Below, piece by piece: positions 14,438 to 20,823 of a stretch of 64,000 bases of DNA. Both the position numbers and the translations under genes were made by a program. The notes beneath the pieces were generated by a model. That model was not told the origin of the DNA. It ran no database searches and saw only the letters and a list, made by a program, of their open reading frames with translations. Every line of letters begins with the position of its first letter. Positions within the stretch are counted from its first letter, which is position 1. Location of the stretch: assembly GCA_004298905.1 (NCBI GenBank), contig SCTK01000009.1, positions 1 through 64,000 of the forward strand. Reading direction: 5' to 3'. The stretch comes from Burkholderiaceae bacterium (GTDB lineage Bacteria > Pseudomonadota > Gammaproteobacteria > Burkholderiales > Burkholderiaceae_D).

Positions 14438-14513
<76 letters not shown>

Positions 14514-14840: not shown

Positions 14841-15075
14841 ACTATATAAATTAACGTTTAATTTCTGTTTTATGAAAATAAAACGTGATGAGTATGTGAC
14901 TGATCCGGATGCGTGGAATTACGGGGATCAGAGAACCCTGGACTCGGACCCGAAAATCGATCAGAGCATCGGCTGGTGACGCGTGCATTGTGGCGCGTCG
15001 GGGAAGGTGTTTTGTGTGGAGTGAAATATCCGCGAAATCGGGGTGGCGGGGTGGTGTGAGTGGGCGTAGATTTTG

Positions 15076-15183
15076 CCGAAACCGAAACCGAAACCGAAAC
15101 CGAAACCGAAACCGAAACCGAAACCGAAACCGAAACCGAAACCGAAACCGAAACCGAAACCGAAACCGAAACCGAAACCGAAG
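15076..15183 (+). repeat. Hexanucleotide tandem array CCGAAA x17 plus one variant copy
   Basis: Seventeen perfect CCGAAA units (15076-15177) and a final CCGAAG. The array ends about 36 bases before the likely start of the TIR gene. In one frame, from a TTG at 15073, it would encode alternating Pro-Lys and fuse to the TIR gene. I favour the GTG at 15220 as the start, because it has an excellent ribosome binding site (AGGGGG, 6 bases away) and gives a normal TIR N-terminus. The rest of the gap 14841-15075 shows no gene I can support. Confidence 0.9.
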
Positions 15184-15219
15184 GCGGATGGCGTGAAACG
15201 ACGCTTCAGGGGGATCGAC

Positions 15220-16878
15220 GTGAACACGAATACCAACGAATCAAAGCACGACGCGGTGAACAATGGGACGGAGACGTACCGCTTCGACGCTTTTATCTCA
15301 TATCGCCGTTCTGACGGACGCAAAGTAGCGAACTGGCTACGTCGCGAACTGCAGTCGTTTCGTCCGCCGCATAAGCTGGCGAACCTAGCGGGCAGACGGC
15401 TGCGAGTCTATCTCGACATCGCCTACGAGCGCGGCACCACGGATTTCTACGAAAACACCATACGTCCAGCGTTGCTTGCGTCACGTTATCTCATCGTGTT
15501 GGCCACACCAGATGCTGTGCAGCGACGCGAGGGGCAAGCTGACTGGATTCAGCGCGAAGTGATTGACTTTTCCGCTTCCCCCCAGGGCGCGAACATATTG
15601 ATCTCGCGCGGTGCGGGCGAATTATTGGACCCGCTACCCGCCGACCTGGAACAGCGATTTCAGAATCCCGAGATCGTGGATCTTCGGGGCGCTGGCCGGT
15701 TCTGGTTCTTCAATCCCAGCAAGATGTCCCGCCTGGCAGAAGAGAAGCTCAAGTTACTTGCGCCGATACTCGACATTCCCCACGACGACATGCCGCTCCT
15801 TCGGCTGGAGGAGGAGAAACGCCAGCAGACGCGCCTTGGTGCGATTTTTGGCACGTCGTTCGCTGTCCTGGCTATGGTCACCGGCCTGTCGGTGTTCGCA
15901 CTCAAGAGCGCGTGGAGGGCGCAGGATGCACTCGGCTCCAGCATGTTTTCGACTGAGCGCATTATAGGTTCCCTTTCCGATACTCTTCCGCAGGAAGGTG
16001 AAGCCGGCGATATCCGAAGCAAGCTGATCTACGAGGCGTGTGACCTGCTCGCCAAACTCGCCCAGGAGGCAGCGCGGCCACCGTCGGTGCGCGAGCGTGT
16101 GTTGTGTGCAATCGAACGCGCACGCGGGCATGAAGCGCAGAAAGAATATCCTCAGTCCGAGGCTGCACTCTCCGCTGCGGTGGACATGGCGCGTGTCGAG
16201 TCAGAGCGCAAATTTTCGTTTGATGTCGCCAGAGCATGGGTTCAAGCGCAGACCGAGCTGATCGATTTCCTCCAGCGTCGCAATGAATCTGTTCGGGCAA
16301 GGGTCGCGGTAGAGGCTTTTCTGCCCGTGTTAAGCCGCCTGGCGAAAGAGAATGCTTCGGAGACTAACTTTGCGACTTACTTTGCGATTACGGAAGCGGA
16401 ACTTCACGGGGTTCGTGCAACGTTGCTCGATGCCAGAACGCAGCTCAGGGAGCGTCTGGATGCCCTCGACAATGCGGCCAGGCGAATGGATGAAGCAATC
16501 CACCTTTCGAGCGCCTCCGATGACAACCTGCCTCGATTGCTGACGGCGCAATCGGACTGGCTGGTACAGGCCGCAATGCTGCACGCGGACGGGAGCGAGT
16601 TCGAACAAGCGGCTGCCCGGTTGCGGCGCGCGATCGATATCCGTGCCGCAATCCTCTGGAGTGGAGACGAAACGGCGGCCCGTGCGGCGGATAACAAGGC
16701 GGACCGGGCCGAGCTCTACGTGTGGCTCGCGGTGCTCCAGACGCAAATGAATCGTGCCGCGGAAGCAAGGAAAGCAAAAGTAGCCGCCGCGGCGTTGCTT
16801 TCAGAATTGGCGGCACACCCGGAACTGACTGCCGAACTTGCAAAGCGTATTCGGGAAATCAGGGGCAGGCTCAATTGA
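15220..16878 (+). CDS. Membrane-anchored TIR-domain protein with helical repeat region (552 aa)
   Basis: Residues about 20-150 form a TIR domain: YRFDAFISYRRSDGRKVANWLRREL segment, VYLDIAYERG, LLASRYLIVLATP, and WIQREVIDF, with the Glu position expected for NAD hydrolysis or cyclisation. A single membrane span follows near residues 208-230 (GTSFAVLAMVTGLSVFALK). The remainder (about 240-552) is Ala/Arg/Glu-rich helix with TPR-like periodicity. Such TIR-TM-repeat proteins are common in bacterial conflict systems; the role here is unknown. The GTG start is chosen by its Shine-Dalgarno sequence. A TTG start at 15073 would add a Pro-Lys tail. It may form a unit with the next gene, 17 bases downstream. 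Confidence 0.75.
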   Translation: MNTNTNESKHDAVNNGTETYRFDAFISYRRSDGRKVANWLRRELQSFRPPHKLANLAGRRLRVYLDIAYERGTTDFYENTIRPALLASRYLIVLATPDAVQRREGQADWIQREVIDFSASPQGANILISRGAGELLDPLPADLEQRFQNPEIVDLRGAGRFWFFNPSKMSRLAEEKLKLLAPILDIPHDDMPLLRLEEEKRQQTRLGAIFGTSFAVLAMVTGLSVFALKSAWRAQDALGSSMFSTERIIGSLSDTLPQEGEAGDIRSKLIYEACDLLAKLAQEAARPPSVRERVLCAIERARGHEAQKEYPQSEAALSAAVDMARVESERKFSFDVARAWVQAQTELIDFLQRRNESVRARVAVEAFLPVLSRLAKENASETNFATYFAITEAELHGVRATLLDARTQLRERLDALDNAARRMDEAIHLSSASDDNLPRLLTAQSDWLVQAAMLHADGSEFEQAAARLRRAIDIRAAILWSGDETAARAADNKADRAELYVWLAVLQTQMNRAAEARKAKVAAAALLSELAAHPELTAELAKRIREIRGRLN

Positions 16879-17546: not shown

Positions 17547-18038
17547 GTGAATCACAAGATCGTCACACCCAGCGAACCACCCGTTCCCGCATTTGCCAGC
17601 GCACACCCAGCCTGGTTTCGTTTGGAAAATCAGGCGAACTGGTACGACGACAAGAGCCAGCATAGCCAGCGCTGGTACAAGCGGCTGAAAATTGCGCAGG
17701 TCAGCCTGGCTGTGCTGATTCCGGCAACGAGCCTACTGCCCGCAGATTGTGCCAAGTGGGCGGCATCCATCGCCGGCATCCTGATTGCCGTGCTTGAAGC
17801 CGTCCAGCAGATGAATCAGTACTCGACGTTATGGGTCACCTACCGCGCCACTGCCGAACGGCTGAAGCATGAGAAATATCTCTTTCTTTCCGCCGCTGGC
17901 CCCTACAAGAACTTGTCAGAGCCTGATCGCTTGATTGCACTGGCCGAGCGTGTCGAGGAGCATGTATCTACAGAGCACGCCAATTGGTTCAATGAGACGC
18001 GACGTGCAGCGACGCCCGCCAAGCCGGAGGGCAAGTGA
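17547..18038 (+). CDS. SLATT-domain membrane protein (DUF4231-like), putative effector
   Basis: A 163-residue protein with two adjacent membrane spans (about 48-65 and 70-87), a preceding amphipathic segment (WYDDKSQHSQRWYKRLK), and the downstream helix WVTYRATAERLKHEKYLF. These fit the SLATT family, predicted pore-forming effectors in nucleotide-signalling immune systems. The GTG start at 17547 has AGGGAG 7 bases upstream; a TTG at 17523 is less likely. Its stop overlaps the next start by one base (TGATG), tying it to the deazaguanine-related genes. In this operon it is the best candidate for the killing component. Confidence 0.8.
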   Translation: MNHKIVTPSEPPVPAFASAHPAWFRLENQANWYDDKSQHSQRWYKRLKIAQVSLAVLIPATSLLPADCAKWAASIAGILIAVLEAVQQMNQYSTLWVTYRATAERLKHEKYLFLSAAGPYKNLSEPDRLIALAERVEEHVSTEHANWFNETRRAATPAKPEGK

Positions 18039-19012
18039 TGGAGGTAATACGACCCTCTTCACTTCTGATTGGTCAGTGCGAATTACCTTTGCCCGCCTAT
18101 TTTCCGTCGATATCTTCGGTGAAAACGGCGTTGCGGCCAGAGGACTATCTGCAGGTCTTGTCCTCACTTGTGGGGCTGAATGGCCAGTTCCTGGTTTCGG
18201 CTTTTGATCTTGCCGCCATTGGCGATCAAGATATGGTCACGGAAATGTTTCGGTCGGCCCGGGAGGCCGGTGCAGTAACGCTGATGGACTCGGGCAATTA
18301 CGAGAGTTTCTGGAAGGATGCACAGTCTGGGTGGACACAAGCTGTGTTTCACAAGGTTTTGGGAACATATGCTTTCGACCTTGCGTTTGGTTTTGATGAA
18401 CAGCATCCACCGACCGATTTTTCGGAACACATTGCGCTGGTTGTCGCTCGATGGCGCGAAGATCAGGCAGCAGCGGGCGATTGTTTGATCGTGCCAATCG
18501 TTCATGGAACCGCCGATGCGTTGCCGACACTTTGTGCCGCAGTTGTTACAGAGACCGGCGTACCGATGATTGCCGTTCCTGAGCGTCGACTGGGCGACGG
18601 CGTCGTATCGCGCGCCCACGCGGTTGATGCAATTCGTCGAGAGCTTAACCAGCAAGGGCGCTACGTTGCACTACATCTACTTGGAACTGGCAACCCAATC
18701 TCGATTGCGCTCTACTCTGCAATGGGGGCAGATAGCTTCGACGGCTTAGAGTGGTGCCAGACCGTTGTTGATCACGACACAGCACTGCTGTTTCACCTGT
18801 CACAGGCAGACTTCTTTGCCGCGCAGACTCGGTGGTCCGATGCAGGGCTGTCATTCCATGCTCGAACGCTGGCGCATAACCTTGAATTTTACTCAGTCTG
18901 GATGCAGGGCTTGCGTACGGCTATGTTGAATGGAACCGCGTCTAATTTTTGTCGCCACAATTTTCCGGATCGTATTTTCAGGCAATGCGCGACAGCTTTC
19001 GGATGGCAGTGA
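18038..19012 (+). CDS. TGT-like protein (queuine/archaeosine tRNA-ribosyltransferase fold), Cap10-like
   Basis: The 324-residue protein has the TIM-barrel landmarks of tRNA-guanine transglycosylases: LMDSGNYES (residues 82-90), with the catalytic Asp at 84 where TGT has DSGGFQ; VPIVHGTAD; and HLLGTGNPISIALYSAMGADSFD (213-235), where TGT has its second Asp. The C-terminal CxCxxC-type zinc site of tRNA-acting TGTs is not seen; only isolated Cys residues remain. It is thus a divergent paralogue, like those in type IV CBASS and the Dpd DNA-modification systems, not the housekeeping Tgt. The ATG at 18038 has GGAGG 7 bases upstream. Confidence 0.8.
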   Translation: MEVIRPSSLLIGQCELPLPAYFPSISSVKTALRPEDYLQVLSSLVGLNGQFLVSAFDLAAIGDQDMVTEMFRSAREAGAVTLMDSGNYESFWKDAQSGWTQAVFHKVLGTYAFDLAFGFDEQHPPTDFSEHIALVVARWREDQAAAGDCLIVPIVHGTADALPTLCAAVVTETGVPMIAVPERRLGDGVVSRAHAVDAIRRELNQQGRYVALHLLGTGNPISIALYSAMGADSFDGLEWCQTVVDHDTALLFHLSQADFFAAQTRWSDAGLSFHARTLAHNLEFYSVWMQGLRTAMLNGTASNFCRHNFPDRIFRQCATAFGWQ

Positions 19013-19014
19013 CT

Positions 19015-19731
19015 ATGAATGTTCACATCATCAACCGGACAATTCGCGCCATGTGCATTGAGGTAAAAGCACAAGGTGGTTCTCTTCATGATTGGAGGTT
19101 GCTCACAGAAGGGGAGCTGCTATATGAAGCGGCGGTGTGCATGTTTGGCAGTCAGATGGTGTTTGAGCTCGCAGTGGCAACCGCCGACCGGTTGCGTTCG
19201 GAAGGATTTCTCCGGCCACAGAAACGTGGGTTCGACCTAGTTAACTACGAAGCCAAGGTCATCGCGGCGCTTTCTGAGCCTTTGCCAATCAGTGCCAAAG
19301 ATGGCACCACCCGCTGGGTGCGTCCGCGTTTCAAAAATCGATTGGCATCGCTGCTGACAACAACAGTCGCCGAAATGTACGGGAATGCACGATCCATTCG
19401 CAATTTACTTTTCTCTGCAAAAACGGCCAAGGAAGCCCGAGAATCGTTGATGCAGAATGTATGGGGATTTGGTCCAAAACAGTCCAGCCTCTTCTTGCGC
19501 CGGGTTGGATACTGCGCTGACCTTGCTGTTCTGGATGTTCATGTATTGGATTACCTTCGCTTGGCTCGTGGAGTTACGCTTTCGCCAAGTAGGCTTGGAT
19601 GCCTGCCGCTATACGAAAAAATTGAAGATACGTTTCGTGAGGTTGCAGCCGAGTTTGGCTATTCCCTCGGTTGTGTCGACCTGGCCACTTGGCTCACGAT
19701 GCGAGTTGCTAAGCGAGAGGCATATTTGTGA
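19015..19731 (+). CDS. OGG-like HhH-GPD DNA glycosylase/lyase family protein
   Basis: The 238-residue protein has the helix-hairpin-helix core VWGFGPKQSSLFLRRVGY followed by LAVLDVHVLDYL. Lys155 in GFGPK and Asp174 in LDVH match the catalytic Lys/Asp pair of 8-oxoguanine glycosylases. A domain of this type accompanies QueC-like and TGT-like genes in type IV CBASS. Whether it acts on DNA, or on a glycosidic bond of a modified nucleoside, is open. The start is ambiguous (ATG 19015, 19003 or 18985); I chose 19015, 2 bases after the TGT-like stop. Confidence 0.72.
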   Translation: MNVHIINRTIRAMCIEVKAQGGSLHDWRLLTEGELLYEAAVCMFGSQMVFELAVATADRLRSEGFLRPQKRGFDLVNYEAKVIAALSEPLPISAKDGTTRWVRPRFKNRLASLLTTTVAEMYGNARSIRNLLFSAKTAKEARESLMQNVWGFGPKQSSLFLRRVGYCADLAVLDVHVLDYLRLARGVTLSPSRLGCLPLYEKIEDTFREVAAEFGYSLGCVDLATWLTMRVAKREAYL

Positions 19732-20321
19732 GTTTCGTCAATCTGGTTTCCGGTGGGCTCGACTCGACCCTGATAGGTGTGATGGCGAAAGCGGACGGAA
19801 TCGAGCACTTTCCGCTGTTCATCGACTATGGGCAACGGGTAGCCAGCAAGGAGTGGGTAACCTGCCTGGCAGTCCATAAACAACTCGAACTTCCCGATCC
19901 GACGCGGATGGACTTATCTGGCTTCGGACGCGTCATTGTCTCTGGTTTGACGAATCCCGATCTCGATGTAAAAAACGACGCATTCACCCCTGGGCGCAAT
20001 CTGATGTTCCTGTTGATGGGCAGTGCCTACGCATATCAGCTTGGTGCTTCTTCTGTAGCAATTGGCTTACTGTCAGAACAGTTCAGCTTGTTCCCGGACC
20101 AGCGCCCACAATTCATCGCCCAGGCCGAATCTGCTATTGAGACGGCAATGGGGCGAAGAGTGAAGGTGCTGACCCCACTTTTTGATTTTGGCAAAGCGGA
20201 TGTCGTCAAGCTGGCTCAGGAAAAAGGCGTGAGCGGAACGTACTCGTGCCACACCGGCGAAACTCAGCCTTGTGGGCATTGCATCTCGTGTTTGGAATTT
20301 CAATTCGATAAGGGGGGATGA
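19728..20321 (+). CDS. QueC-like PP-loop enzyme (Cap9/QatC-like)
   Basis: A 197-residue QueC relative. It has the PP-loop SGGLDST (residues 8-14), FIDYGQR, the GRNLMFL motif, and a C-terminal zinc site of four cysteines (174, 182, 185, 188, in SCHTGETQPCGHCISC). QueC makes preQ0 from 7-carboxy-7-deazaguanine with ATP and ammonia. QueC-like enzymes in defence loci are a separate branch; from memory, some attach the activated deazaguanine to a partner protein's N-terminal glycine. The GTG start overlaps the previous stop (GTGA). No queD, queE or folE is adjacent, so precursor must come from elsewhere. Confidence 0.85.
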   Translation: MSFVNLVSGGLDSTLIGVMAKADGIEHFPLFIDYGQRVASKEWVTCLAVHKQLELPDPTRMDLSGFGRVIVSGLTNPDLDVKNDAFTPGRNLMFLLMGSAYAYQLGASSVAIGLLSEQFSLFPDQRPQFIAQAESAIETAMGRRVKVLTPLFDFGKADVVKLAQEKGVSGTYSCHTGETQPCGHCISCLEFQFDKGG

Positions 20322-20322
20322 C

Positions 20323-20823
20323 ATGGGCGGTGGCTCCGGCGGCGGTTTGTACGGTTCAGACATCAAGGGGCTCGAGGACAAGGTGAGACAGCGCCTCGCC
20401 GAAGCCAAGGAAGATGTGAGTAGGCACGTGTTCATCAGCTTTGATCACGAAGATATGGACGAAGTGAATTTGCTCCGAGGCCAGGCAAAAAACGACAAAG
20501 TCGACCTTCAATTTGACGACCATTCCGTCAAGGAACCATACGACAGCGACAATGCGGACTACATTAAACGAAATACCCGCGAAAAGATTGACCGCTGCTC
20601 CGTCACGGTGGTTTACCTCAGCGACAAAACTGCATCGAGCAAATGGGTGAATTGGGAAATCGAAGAGAGCCTCAAGCGCGGCAAAGTGGTAATTGGTGTC
20701 CATAAAGGCGACACGCCGCCGACGAAAACACCGCCAGCATTCCATCAAAATGGGTGCAAGGCGGTGAAATGGGAGCATGCCGCGCTGATGAAGGCTATAG
20801 AGGATGCGAACGCCAAACGCTGA
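20323..20823 (+). CDS. ThsB-like TIR protein (DUF1863/MTH538 type) with glycine-rich N-terminus
   Basis: A 166-residue single-domain TIR-like protein. The core runs HVFISFDHED (residues 35-43), SDNADYIKRNTREKI, CSVTVVYLSDKT and WVNWEIEES (108-115, with Glu112/114 at the expected catalytic position), then VVIGVHKGD. This is the Thoeris ThsB group, whose members make cyclic ADP-ribose-type signals from NAD. The N-terminus is MGGGSGGGLYG, so Met removal would expose Gly2. The ATG at 20323 lies one base after the QueC-like stop, with AGGGGGG at 20311-20317 as ribosome binding site; an ATG 17 codons upstream lies inside the previous gene. A terminator follows. Confidence 0.85.
   Translation: MGGGSGGGLYGSDIKGLEDKVRQRLAEAKEDVSRHVFISFDHEDMDEVNLLRGQAKNDKVDLQFDDHSVKEPYDSDNADYIKRNTREKIDRCSVTVVYLSDKTASSKWVNWEIEESLKRGKVVIGVHKGDTPPTKTPPAFHQNGCKAVKWEHAALMKAIEDANAKR

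Follow-up and report, generated by a model that had tools for sequence, protein, structure and literature searches.

A glycine-rich N-terminal tail points to a TIR protein as the likely target of a CBASS-like deazaguanylation module

The 64,000-nucleotide window analyzed here (contig SCTK01000009.1 of a Burkholderiaceae bacterium, positions 1 to 64,000) raises the question of what a QueC-family enzyme does when its gene lies directly upstream of a gene for a TIR protein. In the literature consulted, QueC is named in defense only for qatABCD and for type IV CBASS (cyclic oligonucleotide-based antiphage signaling system) (PMC10952713, PMC13279940, PMC13329287). Protein deazaguanylation has so far been shown for the type IV CBASS cyclase alone and is suspected for QatB. 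Cap9 is reported to modify Gly2 of the cyclase, whose N terminus is MGGS; QatB starts MGTS and loses its defense activity when it carries G2D (PMC13279940). An initial annotation, made from the letters of the window, had named such N-terminal modification for type IV CBASS and possibly Qat, in agreement with PMC13279940 and PMC11996544. It proposed that the QueC-like enzyme of this operon modifies Gly2 of the TIR protein. From the sequence comparisons below, we consider it likely that the TIR N terminus is modified with a deazaguanine, a judgment that covers this step and not every later one.

The TIR gene is the last of five tightly packed + strand genes, in the order SLATT, Cap10-like TGT, OGG-like glycosylase, Cap9-like QueC, and TIR. 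The genes and the elements around the TIR start are as follows.

17547 to 18038, + strand: SLATT/DUF4231 two-transmembrane protein with a GTG start, the first cassette gene and a candidate membrane effector (Pfam, NCBIfam, synteny).
18038 to 19012, + strand: Cap10-like protein with a TGT fold (PADLOC TGT, 1e-19; profile against PDB; model).
19015 to 19731, + strand: OGG-like helix-hairpin-helix (HhH) N-glycosylase/DNA lyase, accessory (Pfam Ogg-HhH, 1.5e-17; conserved motifs).
19728 to 20321, + strand: Cap9-like QueC enzyme, 197 amino acids (Pfam QueC, 6e-40; Cap9 9nto, 2e-13).
20310 to 20317, + strand: Shine-Dalgarno-like purine-rich stretch of the TIR gene (sequence; AAGGAG-type counterpart in relatives).
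20323 to 20823, + strand: TIR protein (ThsB type), predicted substrate and signal-producing enzyme (PF08937, 2e-23; model; invariant residues).
20323 to 20355, + strand: N-terminal tag MGGGSGGGLYG, with Gly2 as the predicted deazaguanylation site once Met is removed (conservation, disorder, likeness to CdnD).
20356 to 20418, + strand: helical linker, residues ~12 to 32, joining the tag to the TIR fold (predicted helix; missing from stand-alone control TIRs).

The QueC-like gene ends with a TGA at 20319 to 20321, and the TIR ATG follows at 20323 to 20325, with one base between. A few bases upstream of the ATG is AAGGGGGG, which is purine rich and resembles a Shine-Dalgarno sequence. Relatives keep AAGGAG or AAGGAGA at the same place, and this supports the TIR start at 20323. 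The TIR protein is 166 amino acids long, and its N terminus reads MGGGSGGGLYGSDIKG. By hand count, seven glycines fall within residues 1 to 11 and six within the other 155. The initial annotation had described both the ATG one base past the QueC-like stop, with its Shine-Dalgarno sequence, and a glycine-rich beginning unlike the rest of the protein, and both descriptions held. Glycine runs are of low complexity and arise easily by slippage, and the tail might thus be an artefact, either a wrong start codon or a chance run. However, in nearly all relatives the TIR ATG lies 0 to 21 bases past the QueC stop with a Shine-Dalgarno-like sequence, and MGG is retained across phyla in TIR relatives that are 45 to 95% identical to the window protein. 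We give the artefact explanation almost no credence.

A deazaguanylation substrate is expected to have a flexible N-terminal tail with Gly2, and we found such a tail in the TIR model. Residues 1 to 10 are predicted to be disordered (pLDDT below 50) and residues 11 to 30 to form a helix, and the TIR fold follows. By structure comparison, this fold is nearest to a Bacillus cereus TIR and to ThsB. In an alignment of TIR relatives (A1), Gly2 is nearly invariant and Gly3 is invariant; W111, E112, and E115 are also invariant (34 relatives).

A scan of ~85,000 species genomes, for which the TGT-like protein served as the query, returned 37 loci. Because of this choice of query, the retrieval of loci was unbiased by the TIR N termini. 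The candidate starts were ATG codons close to the end of the QueC gene, with MGG preferred if present, and the MGG ATG was obvious in nearly all loci. The initial annotation had called for a comparison of TIR N termini from operons with and without QueC-like genes. We found that the TIR beside the Cap9-like QueC begins with MGG in 43 of 44 distinct cassettes, and among the background N termini of the same loci, MGG starts 8 of 1,354. The tail consists of MGG, then a Gly/Ser-rich stretch, and then a helical linker of ~20 residues ahead of the TIR fold.

As controls, we drew 51 ThsB-family TIRs from two genome samples, 30 of them stand-alone and without the cassette. None of these 30 stand-alone TIRs started with MGG. 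Most of them begin 4 to 9 residues ahead of the TIR domain and therefore lack the whole ~30-residue tail. Among all 51 controls, any candidate MGG start was confined to two multidomain TIRs. Fisher tests of cassette versus control MGG starts gave ~7e-20 (43/44 versus 0/30) and 2e-23, values that are only descriptive because shared ancestry is ignored. The Rhizobiaceae operons provide an internal control, as their second TIR starts MSSHTDP and has no tail. A second internal control comes from locus L084, where a ThsB-type TIR starts MTQRHKVFVSY; on this ground we rejected a wider rule by which every TIR next to a QueC of whatever kind would have the tail. The QueC at that locus is outside the cassette clade, scores only 64 bits to the window enzyme, and is adjoined by housekeeping-looking genes.

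The TIR tail closely resembles that of the CBASS cyclase. A Pseudanabaena plasmid encodes a type IV CBASS in which the cyclase starts MGGSGGGFFSNSDITK and matches CdnD of PDB entries 9ntn and 9nto (E value, 2e-76), for which the aligned N terminus reads GGSFGSGFDPRDIS. We set these alongside the window TIR tail and the TIR tail of locus L018, MGGSYGGGLSNRDIQS. A position matrix built from TIR tails alone gave the two CdnD tails 24.9 and 15.9 bits, and the best of the 1,354 background N termini scored −1.0. With positions 1 to 3 dropped, both CdnD tails still ranked above all 1,428 background N termini. The resemblance fades past residue 16, and the TIR and CdnD folds are unrelated despite their like tails. 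The two tails may go back to a common ancestor or may have converged on a single binding site. Taken together, the MGG enrichment, the CdnD-like tail, and the Cap10-like TGT in the operon support the proposal that the QueC-like enzyme would modify Gly2 of the TIR protein.

Relatives of the QueC-like enzyme share SGGxDS, RN, and four zinc cysteines (Cys4) without exception (43 of 43). In a maximum-likelihood tree, the QueC proteins of TIR systems form one clade (97/95), apart from CBASS Cap9 (100/97) and from canonical QueC. The base-recognition site reads YPDC in canonical QueC, YxDC in CBASS Cap9, Thr/Thr in QatC, and FPDQ in nearly all TIR systems. Both the separate clade and FPDQ would suit an enzyme that modifies TIR Gly2 with a small molecule other than 7-carboxy-7-deazaguanine (CDG), as suggested for QatC. 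In contrast to QatC with its Thr/Thr (PMC13279940), however, the Asp that reads the base edge of CDG is kept in 43 of 43 relatives and the stacking position is aromatic (F or Y); the Cap10-like protein likewise keeps an Asp at the TGT base-recognition position. The QatC model matched the operon QueC with only 0.003 to 0.004. We regard another small molecule as unlikely and predict that the operon QueC ligates CDG to the TIR N terminus.

A profile of 34 TGT-like relatives had Cap10 (9ntn) as its only PDB match (2e-13). The model of the TGT-like protein has a TGT fold (pLDDT, 92) and by fold is equally close to Cap10 and to tRNA enzymes. In the TGT pocket, it retains the Asp positions for base recognition and for catalysis, but it is missing the CxCxxC zinc site together with the tRNA-contact stretch next to it. 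Cap10 of CBASS is described as binding the modified N terminus (PMC11996544), and the Cap10-like protein is expected to bind a deazaguanine-tagged N terminus.

The QueC, TGT, and OGG families are all nucleobase enzymes, and the OGG-like protein keeps its catalytic-type motifs, GPKQ(A/S)S and LDxH with their Lys and Asp, in 42 of 42 relatives. Both facts fit a different account, by which the glycine tail is a mere flexible linker, the QueC and TGT relatives make a deazaguanine and insert it into DNA or RNA, and the OGG relative takes it out again. Against this, the TGT-like protein is without the zinc cysteines and tRNA-contact stretch and is nearest in sequence to Cap10, and a plain linker would need neither an MGG fixed at the extreme N terminus nor a likeness to CdnD. 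We consider modification of nucleic acid very unlikely, and modification of the TIR protein remains our preferred reading.

Deazaguanylation of the TIR protein would call for a QueC that keeps CDG recognition and a host that makes CDG. We found QueD, canonical QueC, and Tgt in the host genome, and next to QueD lies a QueE-like gene, with the QueE call falling below the curated cutoff. QueD or canonical QueC is present in each of the 34 cassette genomes. From these genes, the host should make the deazaguanine substrate. We found no CD-NTase in the operon and no SMODS domain in the whole host genome.

Several points weigh against modification of the TIR protein with CDG. The support is comparative throughout. 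The sole exception to MGG is locus L038, whose TIR starts MAGSGGGSG and would need Ala as the acceptor or another start. With FPDQ where Cap9 has YxDC, the enzyme could differ in the details of its substrate. Two genomes (G619 and G631, with loci L014 and L027) have canonical QueC and no PTPS (QueD) match. The CdnD tails compared were only two, and the Met of the PDB tail was assumed; the number stayed at two because a Cap9 fragment search of 299 Pseudomonadota genomes (E value, 1e-15) found no further type IV CBASS.

Among known systems, the operon is most readily compared with type IV CBASS. In both, a QueC-family ligase and a TGT-family binder are encoded with a partner that has an MGG, Ser/Gly-rich N terminus, and here we found a Cap9-like QueC, a Cap10-like TGT, and an MGGS-type partner. 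The partner is a TIR protein here and a CD-NTase there, and the QueC here belongs to its own clade. The SLATT gene product matches DUF4231 (6e-25) and SLATT_1 (4e-10) in Pfam and SLATT_1 (5e-33) in NCBIfam. A weak SLATT-like membrane protein ends the Pseudanabaena type IV CBASS locus too (L118, 9433 to 10005), which suggests that the two types of system may share an effector class.

Like qatABCD, the operon has a QueC-family enzyme and a partner with an N-terminal glycine, which in QatB is essential. In contrast to QatC, which has large extensions, the operon enzyme is minimal, and the operon showed no trace of QatA, QatB, or QatD. The likeness to Thoeris is in the TIR protein, which is of the ThsB family. 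SLATT stands here instead of ThsA, which was absent among the seven genes scanned (no genome-wide search was made), and Thoeris has neither the N-terminal tag nor the Cap9/Cap10/OGG module. The operon proteins share folds and catalytic cores with the canonical queuosine enzymes QueC and Tgt but are separate, remodeled families, and the host keeps its own canonical copies.

The best reading of these comparisons is a type IV CBASS-like conjugation module in which a TIR protein would replace the cyclase. According to this model, the operon is an antiphage operon with the TIR protein, and not a CD-NTase, as the substrate of the module. Met would be removed from the TIR protein, and the Cap9-like QueC, with ATP, would join host-made CDG to Gly2. 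The product would be an N-terminal deazaguanine (NDG) tag on the flexible TIR tail. The Cap10-like TGT relative would then bind the tagged tail and control or prime the TIR protein. Upon infection, the TIR protein would consume NAD+, either making a signal or depleting NAD+, and the SLATT two-transmembrane protein would be the membrane effector. The steps after tagging, namely, tag binding, the TIR signal, and the SLATT effector, are plausible. We infer that the modification is covalent and that events follow this order, and we likewise infer catalysis by the TIR protein, the effector role of SLATT, and any role of the OGG-like protein.

The order TGT-like, QueC-like, TIR is kept in all 37 loci save two on truncated contigs. 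The OGG-like gene is found in nearly all related loci and the SLATT gene in most, upstream of the TGT-like gene. The hosts span at least 13 phyla, including Pseudomonadota, Acidobacteriota, Planctomycetota, Nitrospirota, Bacteroidota, Chlorobiota, Bacillota, and Myxococcota. A close copy of the TIR protein occurred in the window's own genome only (40 relatives searched), and one of the QueC-like protein occurred in only one other genome of the host's family (116 genomes). Thirteen records of a plasmid collection had a TIR more than 50% identical, and exactly these 13 had the TGT-like gene. The flanks of the cassette are rich in type I restriction-modification genes, in agreement with what is expected of defense islands. 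On these comparisons, we read the cassette as old and mobile. Viral contigs held no relative of the TIR protein and none of the Pseudanabaena CdnD. Phage tblastn matches reached at most 34% identity, and the matches listed carried QueC/queuosine biosynthesis annotations or were unannotated records.

Several loci depart from the common form. Rhizobium, Agrobacterium, and Neorhizobium plasmids have a version in which a TIR domain and the TGT-like protein form a single fusion protein, and apparently the same fused form is present in four Pseudomonadota genomes. The loci in which the Cap10-like protein appears to have an N-terminal TIR-like domain are L003, L004, L005, L006, L080, L081, L082, and L083; Pfam confirmed the fusion in L003, and the others were judged by similar length. 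L003 and L004 have an additional tail-less TIR beside a double SLATT protein. In L040 (4351 to 6984), just after an HsdM gene, an HsdS-like protein, SLATT, and the Cap10-like protein share one uninterrupted reading frame, which may be an artefact of sequencing or assembly or a genuine fusion within a type I restriction locus. Of the 34 genomes, just two have no PTPS match, and these two contain the cassettes (L014 and L027) that lack the OGG-like gene but are otherwise intact. This hints that the OGG-like protein is linked to queuosine synthesis in the host, although with two cases it may be chance.

Upstream of the cassette lies another TIR gene (15073 to 16878). We rejected this gene and the small gene after it as operon members, as neither has homologues in related loci. 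The upstream TIR gene begins with a perfect CCGAAA hexanucleotide array of 17.8 copies (15076 to 15182), which encodes a Pro-Lys repeat and in which a change in copy number would preserve the frame. A tRNA-Ala gene (anticodon CGC) at 14438 to 14513, ~3 kb upstream of the cassette, is a possible island insertion site.

It is not certain that the idea of TIR tagging is new, and Burroughs and Aravind (2015 and 2020) are likely places of earlier mention. If the TIR protein is a substrate, it would be a second class of immune signal enzyme with deazaguanylation, and one protein modification would join CBASS and TIR-based immunity. The same tag on two unrelated enzymes would mean that its role lies in the binder, Cap10, and not in the carrier enzyme, and the purpose of the tag would become testable. 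We think it probable that the MGG-SGGG-xxSDI tail is transferable and that Cap9 and Cap10 form a general nucleobase-conjugation module for CD-NTase, TIR, and possibly QatB. If so, the module would follow a logic comparable to that of ubiquitin-like tagging, coupled to different immune signal enzymes.
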